Shown piece after piece: positions 1,419 through 7,078 of a stretch of DNA of 64,000 nt. Below the pieces are notes generated by a model, which worked only from the letters and a program-made list of their open reading frames with translations, did not search any database and was not told where the DNA came from. Position numbers and translations under genes: made by a program. The stretch is from Natrialbaceae archaeon AArc-T1-2. Lineage in GTDB: Archaea; Halobacteriota; Halobacteria; Halobacteriales; Natrialbaceae. Location: the NCBI RefSeq assembly GCF_030273315.1, contig NZ_CP127174.1:1426001-1490000 (forward strand). Direction: 5' to 3'. Each line of letters opens with the position of its first letter. Within the stretch, counting starts at the first letter, position 1.

Positions 1419-1688
1419 CCTTAGGTCCTCCGGGCACCACGGGGTGCGTCTGCGCGTAATACTGCGCTCGATTCACTTAAGCCTACGTCAGACATGTTTA
1501 CTATCCAAAACTGCGGAATTATCGGTGACGATAACGACGCTTCGAACGCGAACGCCGATCGTGCGATCGTTCCCCAGGGACGGGTCGTGTTGGACAGCCT
1601 TCTGTGATTCACCCGACGGGAGTGTCAACGATATTAGGGATGGGCGAGGATAGCAAGCTGATGTGACGGTGGCCTACCCGATTGCCGA

Positions 1689-1718
1689 CCCCCCCACCCC
1701 TTCGTTTCGGGTGGAAAC
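1689..1718 (-). promoter_or_regulatory. Origin recognition box 1 (left, inverted)
   Basis: Read on the minus strand it contains CCCGAAACGAAGGGGT followed by seven G residues. This is the haloarchaeal ORB core with its G-string. It is inverted relative to the box at 1990-2018 and bounds the left side of the AT-rich core. It is a predicted Orc1/Cdc6 binding site. Confidence 0.85.
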
Positions 1719-1989: not shown

Positions 1990-2018
1990 GTTGCACTCGA
2001 AACGAAGGGGTGGGGGGG
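1990..2018 (+). promoter_or_regulatory. Origin recognition box 2 (right)
   Basis: Contains CACTCGAAACGAAGGGGT followed by a run of seven G. It shares the CGAAACGAAGGGGTGGGGGGG block exactly with the left box and has the opposite orientation. It bounds the right side of the candidate unwinding element. Confidence 0.85.
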
Positions 2019-2237
2019 TCCAGTATCTCTCTCCCATCTCAGATCCTTTCCAGCTGTCCTCAATACCATTCAATCTTCGACGGCAACAATGTGCAGGACA
2101 CACGCGGTCTCGCCGACACCTGCTGGATCACTATGGGATCTACACTCCGAACTCACACGGACACGTCAACGTATCCTCGTGGCGAACCGTTCTCACGGTC
2201 GCCACACTCGAGACACGTTTGACTCGTCCACGTTTCT

Positions 2238-2534: not shown

Positions 2535-2555
2535 TTCCACCTGAAACGAGGGGGT
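2535..2555 (+). promoter_or_regulatory. Origin recognition box 3 at the orc1 start
   Basis: TTCCACCTGAAACGAGGGGG matches the ORB core with a slightly changed GAGGGGGT end. It ends 13 bp before the orc1 start codon, so it overlaps the expected transcription start region. Orc1 binding here could repress its own gene as well as serve the origin; that is inference. Confidence 0.75.
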
Positions 2556-2568
2556 ACGTGCACGCCAG

Positions 2569-4251
2569 ATGTCTGACGACGATCAGTACCGAACCGATCC
2601 GGGTCGTGACCTCGACCTCGAGTCGGCACGCGGGTTCGCGACGGACCTCGCGGAGACCGATCTAACCGAGGGAGAGCTGACCGACGAGGACTCGAGTCAG
2701 GGACTGTTCGACGATTTGCTCAGTGGCGAACCGATCTTCGAGAACAAGGAGGTACTTCGCCCCTCGTACACGCCACACGAACTTCCCCACCGAAGCGACC
2801 AGATCAACAAGATGGCGACGATCCTCGTCGCCGCGCTGCGTGGAGAAACGCCTTCGAACATCCTCATCTACGGCAAGACCGGCACGGGAAAGACCGCGAG
2901 TGCGAAGTTCGTCAGCAAGGAACTCGAGAGCACCTCCTCGAAGTACAGTGTTCCGTGTGACGTCGAGTACATCAACTGCGAGGTGACCGACACGCAGTAT
3001 CGCGTACTCGCCCAGCTCGCGAACAAGTTCATCGAGGAGAACGAACGGCTCATCGAGGATCGAATCGCCTCCCTCGAAGAACTTCGTGAGGCAGTCGAAA
3101 CCTACGAGGAGGGGTGTGCGGACTCGAGTACCGACTCGACGGCGGGTTCGCTGTTCGATCCCGACGATCCGGGCGTCGACGACCGAACCGACGCTTCGGA
3201 TGCGTTCGATACGGACGGTTCCACCTCGCCGTCCGGTGAATCTCCAGTCGAAACGAAGGGGTCTGACGGATCGGCCGAGGACCATCCGCTGGCGGAGACG
3301 GAGTTCTCTTCGGCCGCCGAGATCGACGGACGGATCGACTCGCTCGAGACCGATCGCGACTCCTTCGAGGAGGTGCCGATGACCGGATGGCCGACCGACC
3401 GGGTTTACAGCGTCTTCTTCGACGCTGTGGATTACTCAGAGCGCGTCGTCGTCATCATGTTAGACGAGATCGACAAACTCGTCGAGAAAAGCGGCGACGA
3501 CACCCTGTATAACCTCTCGCGGATGAACTCCGAACTCGAGAACTCCCGGGTGTCGATCATCGGCATCTCGAACGACCTGAAGTTCACCGACTTTCTCGAT
3601 CCCCGCGTCAAGTCCTCGCTCGGGGAGGAGGAGATCGTCTTCCCGCCCTATGACGCAAACCAGCTCCGGGACATCCTCCAGCACCGGGCCGAAGTGGCGT
3701 TCAAAGACGGTGCGCTCTCCGAGGACGTCATCCCGCTGTGTGCAGCCTTTGCCGCACAGGAACACGGAGACGCCCGGCGGGCGCTCGATCTCCTGCGGAC
3801 GGCGGGCGAACTCGCCGAACGCTCCCAGTCCGAGACGATCGTCGAGGATCACGTCCGCCGGGCACAGGACAAGATCGAACTCGATCGAGTCGTCGAGGTC
3901 GTCCGCACCCTGCCGACTCAGAGCAAACTCGTTCTATTCTCGATCATTCTACTCGAGAAAAACGGCGTCCACAGCATCAACACGGGCGAGGTCTACAACA
4001 TCTACAAACGCCTCTGTGAGGAGATCGACGCCGACGTCCTCACCCAGCGTCGCGTGACCGATCTCATCAGCGAACTCGACATGCTCGGCATCGTCAACGC
4101 CGTCGTCGTCTCGAAGGGACGGTACGGCCGCACGAAAGAGATCAGCCTCTCGGTTCCGCTCGAGGAGACGGAAGTCGTCTTGCAGTCGGACTCTCGGCTG
4201 TCGGATATCGAGGACGTCCAGCCGTTCGTCCAGGCGCGATTCGATAACTGA
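2569..4251 (+). CDS. orc1: Orc1/Cdc6 replication initiator
   Basis: 560-residue AAA+ initiator that recognises ORBs and loads the MCM helicase. Walker A YGKTGTGKTAS is at residues 101-111 and Walker B VVVIMLDEID at 293-302. Sensor and lid regions follow, and a C-terminal winged helix lies at about residues 455-545. Between Walker A and B, residues about 180-265 form an acidic Ser/Thr-rich insertion that looks disordered. The ORB at 3241-3262 is encoded inside it. The start is the first ATG after ORB3. The TGA stop is part of a TGATAC palindrome. The position next to oriC and upstream of the signal peptidase and DP1 identifies it as the origin-linked Orc1. Confidence 0.96.
   Translation: MSDDDQYRTDPGRDLDLESARGFATDLAETDLTEGELTDEDSSQGLFDDLLSGEPIFENKEVLRPSYTPHELPHRSDQINKMATILVAALRGETPSNILIYGKTGTGKTASAKFVSKELESTSSKYSVPCDVEYINCEVTDTQYRVLAQLANKFIEENERLIEDRIASLEELREAVETYEEGCADSSTDSTAGSLFDPDDPGVDDRTDASDAFDTDGSTSPSGESPVETKGSDGSAEDHPLAETEFSSAAEIDGRIDSLETDRDSFEEVPMTGWPTDRVYSVFFDAVDYSERVVVIMLDEIDKLVEKSGDDTLYNLSRMNSELENSRVSIIGISNDLKFTDFLDPRVKSSLGEEEIVFPPYDANQLRDILQHRAEVAFKDGALSEDVIPLCAAFAAQEHGDARRALDLLRTAGELAERSQSETIVEDHVRRAQDKIELDRVVEVVRTLPTQSKLVLFSIILLEKNGVHSINTGEVYNIYKRLCEEIDADVLTQRRVTDLISELDMLGIVNAVVVSKGRYGRTKEISLSVPLEETEVVLQSDSRLSDIEDVQPFVQARFDN
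3241..3262 (+). promoter_or_regulatory. ORB-like site inside the orc1 coding region
   Basis: CAGTCGAAACGAAGGGGT is an almost exact match to the CGAAACGAAGGGGT core of ORB1 and ORB2. It is encoded in frame as codons 225-232 (SPVETKGS) of orc1, inside the disordered acidic insertion. It lacks the extended G-string. Orc1 binding is inferred from the match. Confidence 0.7.
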
Positions 4252-4338: not shown

Positions 4339-5394
4339 CTACCAGCTTCCCGGACGACGGCTGCCGGCGATCGCGGCGACGCTCGCGACGGCGACGAGAC
4401 CGACCTGGAGGCCGCTCGAGCCGCCGGAGGCGGGTCCTCTGTCGGGACCGAGGTTGGGGCCAGGTCCGGGTGTGGAACCGGCCTGTGACGGCGAACTCAC
4501 GAGCAGCGAGTCAAACACCAGTCGAACGTGCCCGAGCCACGGAATGCGTACCGACGCTTTGCCGGTGACCCACTCCGGGCTGACGACGTCCGTCGGAGCA
4601 CCGCTGCCTGCCTGATCGTAGCCCGAGTTCGCGTCGCCTTTGGTGATGAATCCGTCGTGGTCGGCCGGACAGGTGGTGAGGTCCTCACAGGTAGCGCCGT
4701 TGAGATGCTCCGGATCCGCCTGTTCGTCGACCCAGTTGTCGTCTTCTTCGACCCAGTAGTGAGCTCGGTGTATCACGGGGGTCTGAAACTCGTCGCCGTT
4801 GGGCTCGAAGATGATCACGTCTCCGGGTTCGCCGAACTTCTCGTGGCCGCCGTTCTGGCCGTTCTCGTAGGTAACGACGCCGGTCCCGTCGATCGGCTCG
4901 TCGCCGACGAAGCGGTTCTCGTCGACGACGAAGATCATGTCGCCACGTTCCATGTTCGGCTCCATACTGCCGCTTTCGACGGCGACCAGCGGGGGCCAGA
5001 CGCCGCTGACCGCGAACAGCACGAGCCCGATCAGGAGGACGATCGCGACGCTGCTTGCGACGTCACGGATCATCGTCACCGTGCCGTCGTCCGACTTCAG
5101 AAACCAGCGCACGACGCCGTCGTCTTCGATCGTCACCCCGCCGGAACGGGTCGGTCGATCGCCGTCGGCGCGTCGACTGGACCCGGTGTCGTGAGGGCCT
5201 GAATCGCCACGTGGTTTGGCCCATCCGTCGCCGTCTGATCCACTGTCGTCGTCTCTCCCGTCGTGCTCCGACCGGGACAGGTCGTCACGTCGTCGATCGT
5301 CGTCGTGGTCGCCGTCGGACTCCCCTTCATCGTCACGGCTATTGCGACTATCGTGGGGGCCGCTGGAGGAGTCGTCCGGACCGGGACCGCTCAT
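4339..5394 (-). CDS. sec11: Signal peptidase I (archaeal Sec11-like, S26 family)
   Basis: Membrane-bound endopeptidase that removes Sec signal peptides. From the chosen ATG the protein has 351 residues; an ATG nine codons upstream is possible. A highly acidic, Asp/Ser/Arg-rich cytoplasmic tail of about 110 residues precedes a transmembrane helix (VAIVLLIGLVLFAVSGV). The catalytic serine box VESGSMEPNMERGD follows at about residues 140-152, and the conserved His box VIHRAHYWV lies further on. As in archaeal and ER enzymes, a His-based rather than Lys-based dyad is expected. A second hydrophobic stretch near the C-terminus (LQVGLVAVASVAAIAG) suggests a C-terminal anchor. The gene sits between orc1 and DP1 as in other haloarchaea. 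Confidence 0.9.
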   Translation of the reverse strand: MSGPGPDDSSSGPHDSRNSRDDEGESDGDHDDDRRRDDLSRSEHDGRDDDSGSDGDGWAKPRGDSGPHDTGSSRRADGDRPTRSGGVTIEDDGVVRWFLKSDDGTVTMIRDVASSVAIVLLIGLVLFAVSGVWPPLVAVESGSMEPNMERGDMIFVVDENRFVGDEPIDGTGVVTYENGQNGGHEKFGEPGDVIIFEPNGDEFQTPVIHRAHYWVEEDDNWVDEQADPEHLNGATCEDLTTCPADHDGFITKGDANSGYDQAGSGAPTDVVSPEWVTGKASVRIPWLGHVRLVFDSLLVSSPSQAGSTPGPGPNLGPDRGPASGGSSGLQVGLVAVASVAAIAGSRRPGSW

Positions 5395-5509
5395 CGCCTC
5401 CTTCTTTGCCGGGCCCGGCAATCAACCTTCTGTTCGTGCCAGTCGTGGACCGATGCCGATAGCCGGACATTCGTCACCCTTATTTCGAAACTCACGAAAC
5501 CCGACTGGT

Positions 5510-7078
5510 GTGCCACTCGAGGGGTCTGCCCGGATCGTCGACGCGTTCACGAGCCGTGGCTACAACGTCGAACGCGAGGCGGTGACCCTGATCGCGTCCT
5601 CGGAGAATCCGGCCGCGACGATCGAACGCGTCGTCGACGCCACAGCTGAGGGAACGCTCGTCGTGCGGACGGATCACGTCCGGTCGATCCTCGAGTCGTC
5701 CGATAGCGGGACTTCCGTCGACGGCGTCGACGACCCCCCCACTTCAACTGGAGCACCCCCCACCGAGACGCCACACGAAAGCGAGGCGTCTCCAGTTGAA
5801 ATGGAGGGGTCGGAGGTGGCAGAGGCCTCGGCGGGATCGACGCGAACGGTCGATCGGTCGGTCGACCCCACGCTTCGTGACCTCGAGATCGACGGCGACA
5901 TGACCGGCCAGAGTACGGGAACGGGCGAGTACGACGACTTCGTGTCGGTCTTTCGCGACCGGCTCGAGCGACTCGGCTCGAAACTCCGCGGGCGGGTCAA
6001 CCACCGGCCGGCGAGTGCGATCGCGGACATGCCCGGCGGCGAGGAGGTCGCGATGGTCGGACTGGTCAACGACGTGCGCTCGACGGCGAGTGGCCACTGG
6101 CTGATCGAACTCGAGGACGCCACCGGCACGTTCCCGTGGCTCGTCATGAAGGATCGGGAGTACGTCGACCTCGTCGACGAACTGCTGTACGACGAGGCCC
6201 TGGCGATGGCGGGGACGCTGTCGGACGATTCGGGGATCGCCTTCGTCGACTCGATGTACTTCCCGGACGTACCCCGAACGCACGAGCCCTCGACTGCGGA
6301 TCGACACGTGCAGGCGGCACTGATAAGCGACGTCCACGTCGGCAGCCAGGAGTTCATGGCCGGGGCCTGGAACCGGTTTGCCGACTGGCTGCACACCGAG
6401 GAGGCCCGCCACGTCGAGTACCTGCTGATCGCCGGCGACATGGTCGAAGGCGTCGGCGTCTACCCCGACCAGGACGAGGAACTCGAGATCGTCGACATCT
6501 ACGAGCAGTACGAGGCGTTCAGCGAGCACCTGAAGTCGGTTCCGGGGGATATGGAGATCGTCATGATTCCGGGCAACCACGACGCGGTCCGCCTCGCTGA
6601 GCCCCAACCCGGCTTCGACGAGGACCTGCGCGAGCTCATGTCGGCTCACGACGCTCGCATCGTGAGCAACCCCTCCACGGTGACGATCGAGGGCGTCTCC
6701 GTGCTGATGTACCACGGCGTCAGCTTAGACGAGGTGATCGCGGAACTCCCCGAGGAGAAAGCGAGCTACGACGACCCCCACAGGGCGATGTACCACCTCC
6801 TCAAGAAACGCCACGTCGCACCGCAGTTCGGCGGTCATACCCGGCTGGCTCCCGAGGAGAACGATTACCTCGTCATCGACGAGGTGCCCGACGTCTTCCA
6901 TACTGGCCACGTCCACAAACTCGGCTTCGGGAAGTACCACAACGTGCTCGCGATCAACTCCGGCTGCTGGCAGGCCCAGACCGACTTCCAGGAGAGTGTC
7001 AACATCGATCCTGACTCGGGGTATGCGCCGATCGTCGACCTCGACACGCTCGATGTGACCGTCCAGAAGTTCAGTTAG
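5510..7078 (+). CDS. polD1: DNA polymerase D small subunit DP1 (3'-5' exonuclease)
   Basis: 522 residues from a GTG start giving (M)PLEGSARIVDAF. A TATA-like CTTATTT lies about 30 bp upstream, so the mRNA is probably leaderless; a longer open frame upstream lacks the family's N-terminus. Order: N-terminal helical domain (1-60), acidic Pro/Ser linker (64-125), OB fold (about 170-255) and calcineurin-type phosphoesterase domain. Metal motifs: ISDVHVG at 272-278, AGDMVEG near 308, PGNHD at 354-358, YHG near 401 and GHVHK near 466. DP1 supplies proofreading for replicative polymerase D; the large subunit is not in this window. Two inverted ORB-like sites are encoded in the linker. Confidence 0.95.
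   Translation: MPLEGSARIVDAFTSRGYNVEREAVTLIASSENPAATIERVVDATAEGTLVVRTDHVRSILESSDSGTSVDGVDDPPTSTGAPPTETPHESEASPVEMEGSEVAEASAGSTRTVDRSVDPTLRDLEIDGDMTGQSTGTGEYDDFVSVFRDRLERLGSKLRGRVNHRPASAIADMPGGEEVAMVGLVNDVRSTASGHWLIELEDATGTFPWLVMKDREYVDLVDELLYDEALAMAGTLSDDSGIAFVDSMYFPDVPRTHEPSTADRHVQAALISDVHVGSQEFMAGAWNRFADWLHTEEARHVEYLLIAGDMVEGVGVYPDQDEELEIVDIYEQYEAFSEHLKSVPGDMEIVMIPGNHDAVRLAEPQPGFDEDLRELMSAHDARIVSNPSTVTIEGVSVLMYHGVSLDEVIAELPEEKASYDDPHRAMYHLLKKRHVAPQFGGHTRLAPEENDYLVIDEVPDVFHTGHVHKLGFGKYHNVLAINSGCWQAQTDFQESVNIDPDSGYAPIVDLDTLDVTVQKFS
5733..5753 (-). promoter_or_regulatory. ORB-like site inside DP1 coding region (inverted)
   Basis: On the minus strand this reads CTCCAGTTGAAGTGGGGGGG, similar to the ORB plan of a CCAGTTGAA half followed by a G-string. 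It lies in the disordered linker of DP1 (codons about 75-82) and is inverted relative to the site at 5790-5810. Confidence 0.55.
5790..5810 (+). promoter_or_regulatory. ORB-like site inside DP1 coding region (direct)
   Basis: CTCCAGTTGAAATGGAGGGG resembles ORB with a diverged centre. It forms an inverted pair with 5733-5753, sharing CTCCAGTTGAA exactly. In frame it encodes SPVEMEG, close to the SPVETKG encoded by the ORB inside orc1. Confidence 0.55.

Follow-up and report, generated by a model that had tools for sequence, protein, structure and literature searches.

A class-wide inverted pair of ORB-like boxes inside the haloarchaeal DP1 gene, a putative Orc1-binding control element of oriC1

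An inverted pair of ORB-like boxes within the DP1 gene was found to be conserved at the nucleotide level across the haloarchaeal class, with nearly fixed spacing. The boxes share the ORB core, are under selection as DNA, and have arms that evolve independently of one another. The explanation favoured here, with moderate confidence, is a conserved intragenic Orc1-binding control element of oriC1, acting in titration or initiation control; Orc1 binding and function are both inferred, and there are no binding or genetic data.

The pair was located in the window (the whole stretch of DNA analysed, 64,000 nt; table 1), in the DP1 linker at about residues 76-100. Copies of CTCCAGTTGAA were present at 5743-5753 (minus strand) and 5790-5800 (plus strand), in opposite orientations and with 36 bp between them; with at most one mismatch allowed, the window contained 3 such sites, chance alone predicting 0.48. 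The whole arms, of 23 nt each, were 91% complementary, and a G run lay outward of each box (GTGGGGGGG and ATGGAGGGG). The minus box matched the ORB consensus at 16/19 positions, its gene strand coding DPPTSTG (codon-recoding p=0.0003), and the plus box matched at 18/19, coding SPVEMEG (p=0.001). Only 11 sites within two mismatches of the ORB consensus were found in the whole genome (3.36 Mb), 6 of them in the 4 kb oriC1-orc1-DP1 block, and a reversed control pattern gave 0 sites in the same genome-wide scan. Chance origin of the pair was rejected on the window expectation, this genome-wide rarity and the class-wide scan described below, with its 0 control matches.

An earlier note, made from the sequence alone, had claimed inverted ORB-like boxes 36 bp apart in the DP1 linker, each with a G-rich run, and a direct copy coding SPVEMEG, nearly the SPVETKG of the ORB inside orc1. 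Both claims held, as did the gene identities behind them, DP1 and Orc1 being confirmed in the open reading frames by profile matches (NF003116 and NF001625). The further claim, that DP1 and orc1 use one peptide solution, held for the plus box only, and with a qualification: the orc1-internal box seldom occurs outside Natrialbaceae and the DP1 pair is class-wide, hence the more important element. The orc1-internal ORB has a codon-level signal like that of the DP1 boxes, yet this restricted distribution.

Table 1. Features of the oriC1-orc1-DP1 block, in window coordinates.
Feature	Position	Strand	Remarks
oriC1 ORB, left	1687..1716	-	with halophile G-string
oriC1 ORB, right	1991..2020	+	with halophile G-string
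ORB at orc1 promoter position	2536..2555	+	33 bp upstream of orc1 start codon
orc1, oriC1 initiator	2569..4251	+	NCBIfam NF001625, E=3.7e-198
orc1-internal ORB	3243..3262	+	codes SPVETKG
Signal-peptidase-like gene	4339-5421	-	between orc1 and DP1
DP1, small subunit of family D DNA polymerase (PolD)	5510..7078	+	NCBIfam NF003116, E=1.6e-291
DP1 minus box	5734..5752	-	ORB core TCCAGTTGAAGTGGGGGGG; arm 5731-5753
Spacer between DP1 box cores	5753..5790		38 bp; sequence variable, length nearly fixed, not AT-rich
DP1 plus box	5791..5809	+	ORB core TCCAGTTGAAATGGAGGGG; arm 5790-5812

The DP1 boxes have the ORB core of oriC1 and are separated by 3.7-4.1 kb from the ORB pair there, which supports the earlier suggestion of extra initiator binding up to 3-4 kb from the origin, with Orc1 binding itself still inferred and without binding data. 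They are placed 1.5 kb beyond the orc1 stop codon, and the arrangement is similar in most relatives, with ORBs downstream of the initiator gene and outside the origin. The offset from the ORB at the orc1 promoter position to the orc1 start was 33 bp in most Natrialbaceae loci compared (e.g. L001-L011); possibly orc1 is autoregulated by its own product through this ORB, an inference drawn from sequence only. Separately, an isolated good ORB, TTTCCAGTTGAAACGAGGGGGT, was observed about 155 kb from oriC1 (L083 position 1501; G000:C1:1272108); the surrounding 3 kb contained no homologue of orc1.

Conservation in relatives had been named beforehand as the test that could refute the proposal, and the boxes were conserved class-wide at the nucleotide level. 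At 80 DP1 loci of further haloarchaea, the pair was nearly always present in inverted orientation and in the same reading phase, and the box starts were 57 bp apart in 73/81 sequences. An unbiased scan for the strict inverted ORB pair with 57-bp spacing gave matches in 212/391 haloarchaeal genomes and 58/86 genera, almost always one per positive genome, and the reversed control pattern had 0 matches in any of the 391. When compared by eye with DP1 positions, strict matches lay just upstream of the DP1 core; not every match was so compared, and G295 and the second matches of G191 and G375 were exceptions or unresolved. The G295 match, from a deep-branching family, is an inverted ORB pair in the same 57-bp register but outside DP1 (L184, G295:C17:27014-27089).

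Genomes negative for the strict pattern mostly carried versions that were degenerate or had another spacing. Once degenerate boxes and spacings of 54-78 bp were admitted, both boxes were recognisable (14/19 or better to the ORB consensus) in at least 160 of 218 haloarchaeal DP1 regions, a set enriched for strict-negative genomes and sharing species with the 80 loci. Start-to-start spacing in the 160 pairs was 57 bp in 121, 54 bp in 25 and 69 bp in 8, and more rarely 75 bp (3), 78 bp (2) or 72 bp (1). The spacing of the oriC1 ORB pair spans 182-351 bp, far looser than the DP1 register. The first box lies about 191-371 bp from the DP1 start, varying among loci, which argues against protein length as the cause of the fixed box spacing.

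The pair was absent from 23 outgroup genomes of the same phylum (best pair 21-25/38) and from 3 genomes of the haloarchaeal family f11, and family f5 had one box only. Since the pair is absent in the phylum outgroups and widespread in haloarchaea, an early haloarchaeal origin of the element is indicated. Halorubrum genomes carried the plus box only, near 19/19 and without the other arm, and many Halobellus genomes kept mainly the minus box (e.g. among the Halorubrum/Halobellus DP1 genes L216-L226 and L207-L214); the two genera thus erode opposite boxes, and each box is maintainable alone.

Selection in the boxes was shown to act at the DNA level. Under synonymous recoding of the same peptides, with the expectation conditioned on the encoded peptides and on each gene's codon usage, the ORB match was 16.7/19 observed versus 11.8 for the minus box and 17.5/19 versus 13.4 for the plus box, with p<0.01 in 69/81 and 76/81 sequences, respectively. 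Rare codons were held in the boxes: ACT (background 5%) in 64/81 sequences, GTT (8%) in 57 of 81 and GGA (12%) in 61 of 81, and CCA (9%) was used for 76/77 prolines. The third base T of the first plus-box codon was kept across residues S, T, A, V, D, G or P. When 497 aligned DP1 codon columns were scanned without bias, the six strongest codon anomalies fell at residues 78, 80, 81, 94, 95 and 97, all within the two boxes. Box DNA without the consensus peptide was found in 43/164 and 37/112 cases, and the consensus peptide without box DNA in none of the same two case sets; because the DNA is in part dictated by the peptide pattern, the zero count lends support without being decisive. Nine apparent out-of-phase boxes were excluded as probably wrong frame guesses in short fragments.

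Two other causes were rejected. An RNA hairpin was not supported by arm covariation (15.32 paired positions observed versus 15.29 permuted, with 671/2000 permutations as high as the observed pairing). A peptide linear motif was ruled out as the cause, synonymous sites not being free in the recoding, codon-column and peptide/box tests.

The DP1 boxes match the core of the cognate oriC1 ORBs, TCCA..(N)GAAAC..GGGG, and lack the extended halophile G-string that follows it: oriC1 ORBs continue into TGGGGG and the DP1 boxes end GGGGTC, with a G fraction at positions 19-26 of 0.32-0.33 versus 0.75 at oriC1. No AT-rich element was present between the boxes, where mean spacer GC was 0.60 (139 pairs); GC between the oriC1 ORBs of the window was 0.48. 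The halophile G-string is reported to be essential for oriC1 autonomous replication (PMC4010727). Because the G-string and a flanked AT-rich element are both missing, the DP1 pair is probably not an origin. An active second origin at DP1, lacking both features, was accordingly judged unlikely.

DP1 usually adjoins orc1, and the pair usually lies within about 4 kb of oriC1. Boxes were retained in Haladaptatus, Natrarchaeobius, Halobellus and some Halorubrum, in which DP1 is 13-44 kb from orc1 and often inverted, and were mostly lost or weakened where DP1 is more than about 100 kb from orc1 or on a different contig. They were lost in G183, with 144 kb between the two genes, and in G355, with the genes on separate contigs, and were weaker in G133 and G315; in genus g73, three genomes with DP1 and orc1 on different contigs had lost the boxes and the linked one had kept them. 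A good pair was kept in G054 with DP1 194 kb from orc1, which shows that strict closeness to the origin is dispensable, and five genomes with DP1 beside orc1 had lost the pair (G084, G024, G326, G231, G390). Strict dependence on closeness to oriC1 was thus tested and, given the G054 exception and the five linked losses, not established. Loss with distance may hint at a link to the origin, but it rests on about four independent events and is suggestive only.

Orc1 binding is inferred because the DP1 boxes match the cognate ORB, and a control function because of the absent origin features, the position and the known precedents. The proposed element would consist of two mini-ORB type sites for the initiator Orc1, set in the variable linker of DP1 with opposite polarity, outward G runs and a 57-bp register that is nearly fixed. 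The pair would be occupied by two Orc1 molecules as a geometrically defined unit, without firing replication because no halophile G-string and no neighbouring AT-rich unwinding element are present. The pair would then serve as an origin-proximal control site, by titration, by sequestration or as a partner of oriC1, and would be duplicated very soon after initiation along with the ORB in the orc1 promoter. A bolder reading, which we regard as slightly more likely to fail than to hold, is that this conserved intragenic Orc1 control locus is a register-fixed two-Orc1 assembly site that serves the primary origin as a functional archaeal equivalent of datA, dates from early haloarchaea and was missed by intergenic origin surveys; here too Orc1 binding and function are inferred. 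Against the control reading stand the number of boxes, two being few for titration when oriC2D has 11, the single-box state of Halorubrum (plus) and many Halobellus (mainly minus), the linked losses, and the lack of the pair in f11 and the outgroups.

The alternative that survives best is a positive element, in which the pair would aid firing by recruiting Orc1 or MCM close to oriC1 or by looping to the ORBs there. This remains possible: the inverted G-outward layout is that of the oriC1 ORB pair, so fixed a register points to a structured complex, and the pair is usually near oriC1; against it are the missing AT-rich spacer and G-string and the persistence of the pair with DP1 13-44 kb away in either orientation. 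Regulation of DP1 transcription by Orc1 binding within the 5' portion of the gene, as a roadblock or as autoregulatory polymerase-initiator coupling, is considered unlikely. The element does travel with DP1, including in genomes with DP1 13-194 kb from orc1, and Orc1-family proteins can serve as transcription regulators (PMC9738581), but the boxes are 190-370 bp inside the gene and not at the promoter, and the pair was lost in the three g73 genomes and in 2/3 g64 genomes with DP1 still there. Reading of the pair by a protein that is not Orc1, whether a nucleoid protein or a different Orc paralogue, would be compatible with the missing G-string and the spacing unlike that of the origin, but is improbable, as the core is that of the cognate oriC1 ORBs in the same genomes and ORBs are reported to be specific to the linked Orc/Cdc6 (PMC3528665). 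That a protein motif or RNA hairpin is the conserved feature and ORB likeness a by-product, as the pairing capacity of the arms and the recurrence of the peptides DPSVSTG and SPVETKG might suggest, is practically excluded as a sole explanation by the codon tests, by DNA retained through peptide change with the reverse never seen, and by the single near-19/19 arm kept in Halorubrum without a partner.

With the Orc1 control element as the preferred reading, the DP1 pair would point to an overlooked replication control site, its function being inferred. Little is settled about how archaeal origins restrict their own initiation, and oriC2D, the only tested case of titration that was found, belongs to another origin. 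The DP1 pair, a compact element of the primary origin oriC1 that is consistently placed and can be recoded with the DP1 protein unchanged, opens initiator control to direct tests in common laboratory haloarchaea. Initiator-like sites can evidently persist for very long inside a core replication gene, and surveys limited to intergenic regions (such as PMC3528665) skip the coding DNA that holds them. No earlier description of ORBs inside DP1 was found in the open-access literature searched, subscription papers being outside its scope.

Among known systems, the haloarchaeal oriC1 ORB pair shares with the DP1 pair its core TCCASTYGAAACGRAGGGG, the inverted G-outward orientation and the chromosomal block; the DP1 pair differs in lying inside a coding gene, in its 57-bp versus 182-351-bp spacing and in having neither halophile G-string nor AT-rich unwinding element. 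Precedent comes from Haloarcula hispanica, where the ORB-rich oriC2D, located downstream of cdc6E, was proposed to titrate Cdc6E; it lowers oriC2 activity and is itself inactive as an origin (PMC3936714). Its authors also noted ORBs downstream of other initiator genes (PMC3936714), citing a survey that covered intergenic regions (PMC3528665). Both oriC2D and the DP1 pair present extra ORBs beyond the origin and downstream of an initiator gene, with initiator binding expected without origin activity. The many intergenically clustered ORBs of the oriC2D type are not met by the DP1 pair: oriC2D is an oriC2-Cdc6E element whose 11 ORBs are intergenic, whereas the DP1 pair has two boxes, is intragenic, belongs to oriC1-Orc1 and is class-wide in a near-fixed register. 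In E. coli, datA is a DnaA-titrating locus, a non-origin cluster of initiator boxes; it is also mentioned in PMC4010727. The DP1 pair likewise consists of non-origin initiator-type boxes, its function being inferred, although the initiator and boxes of datA are unrelated to it. By analogy, the ORB upstream of orc1 together with the DP1 pair may resemble the bacterial combination of dnaA-promoter boxes and a titration site.
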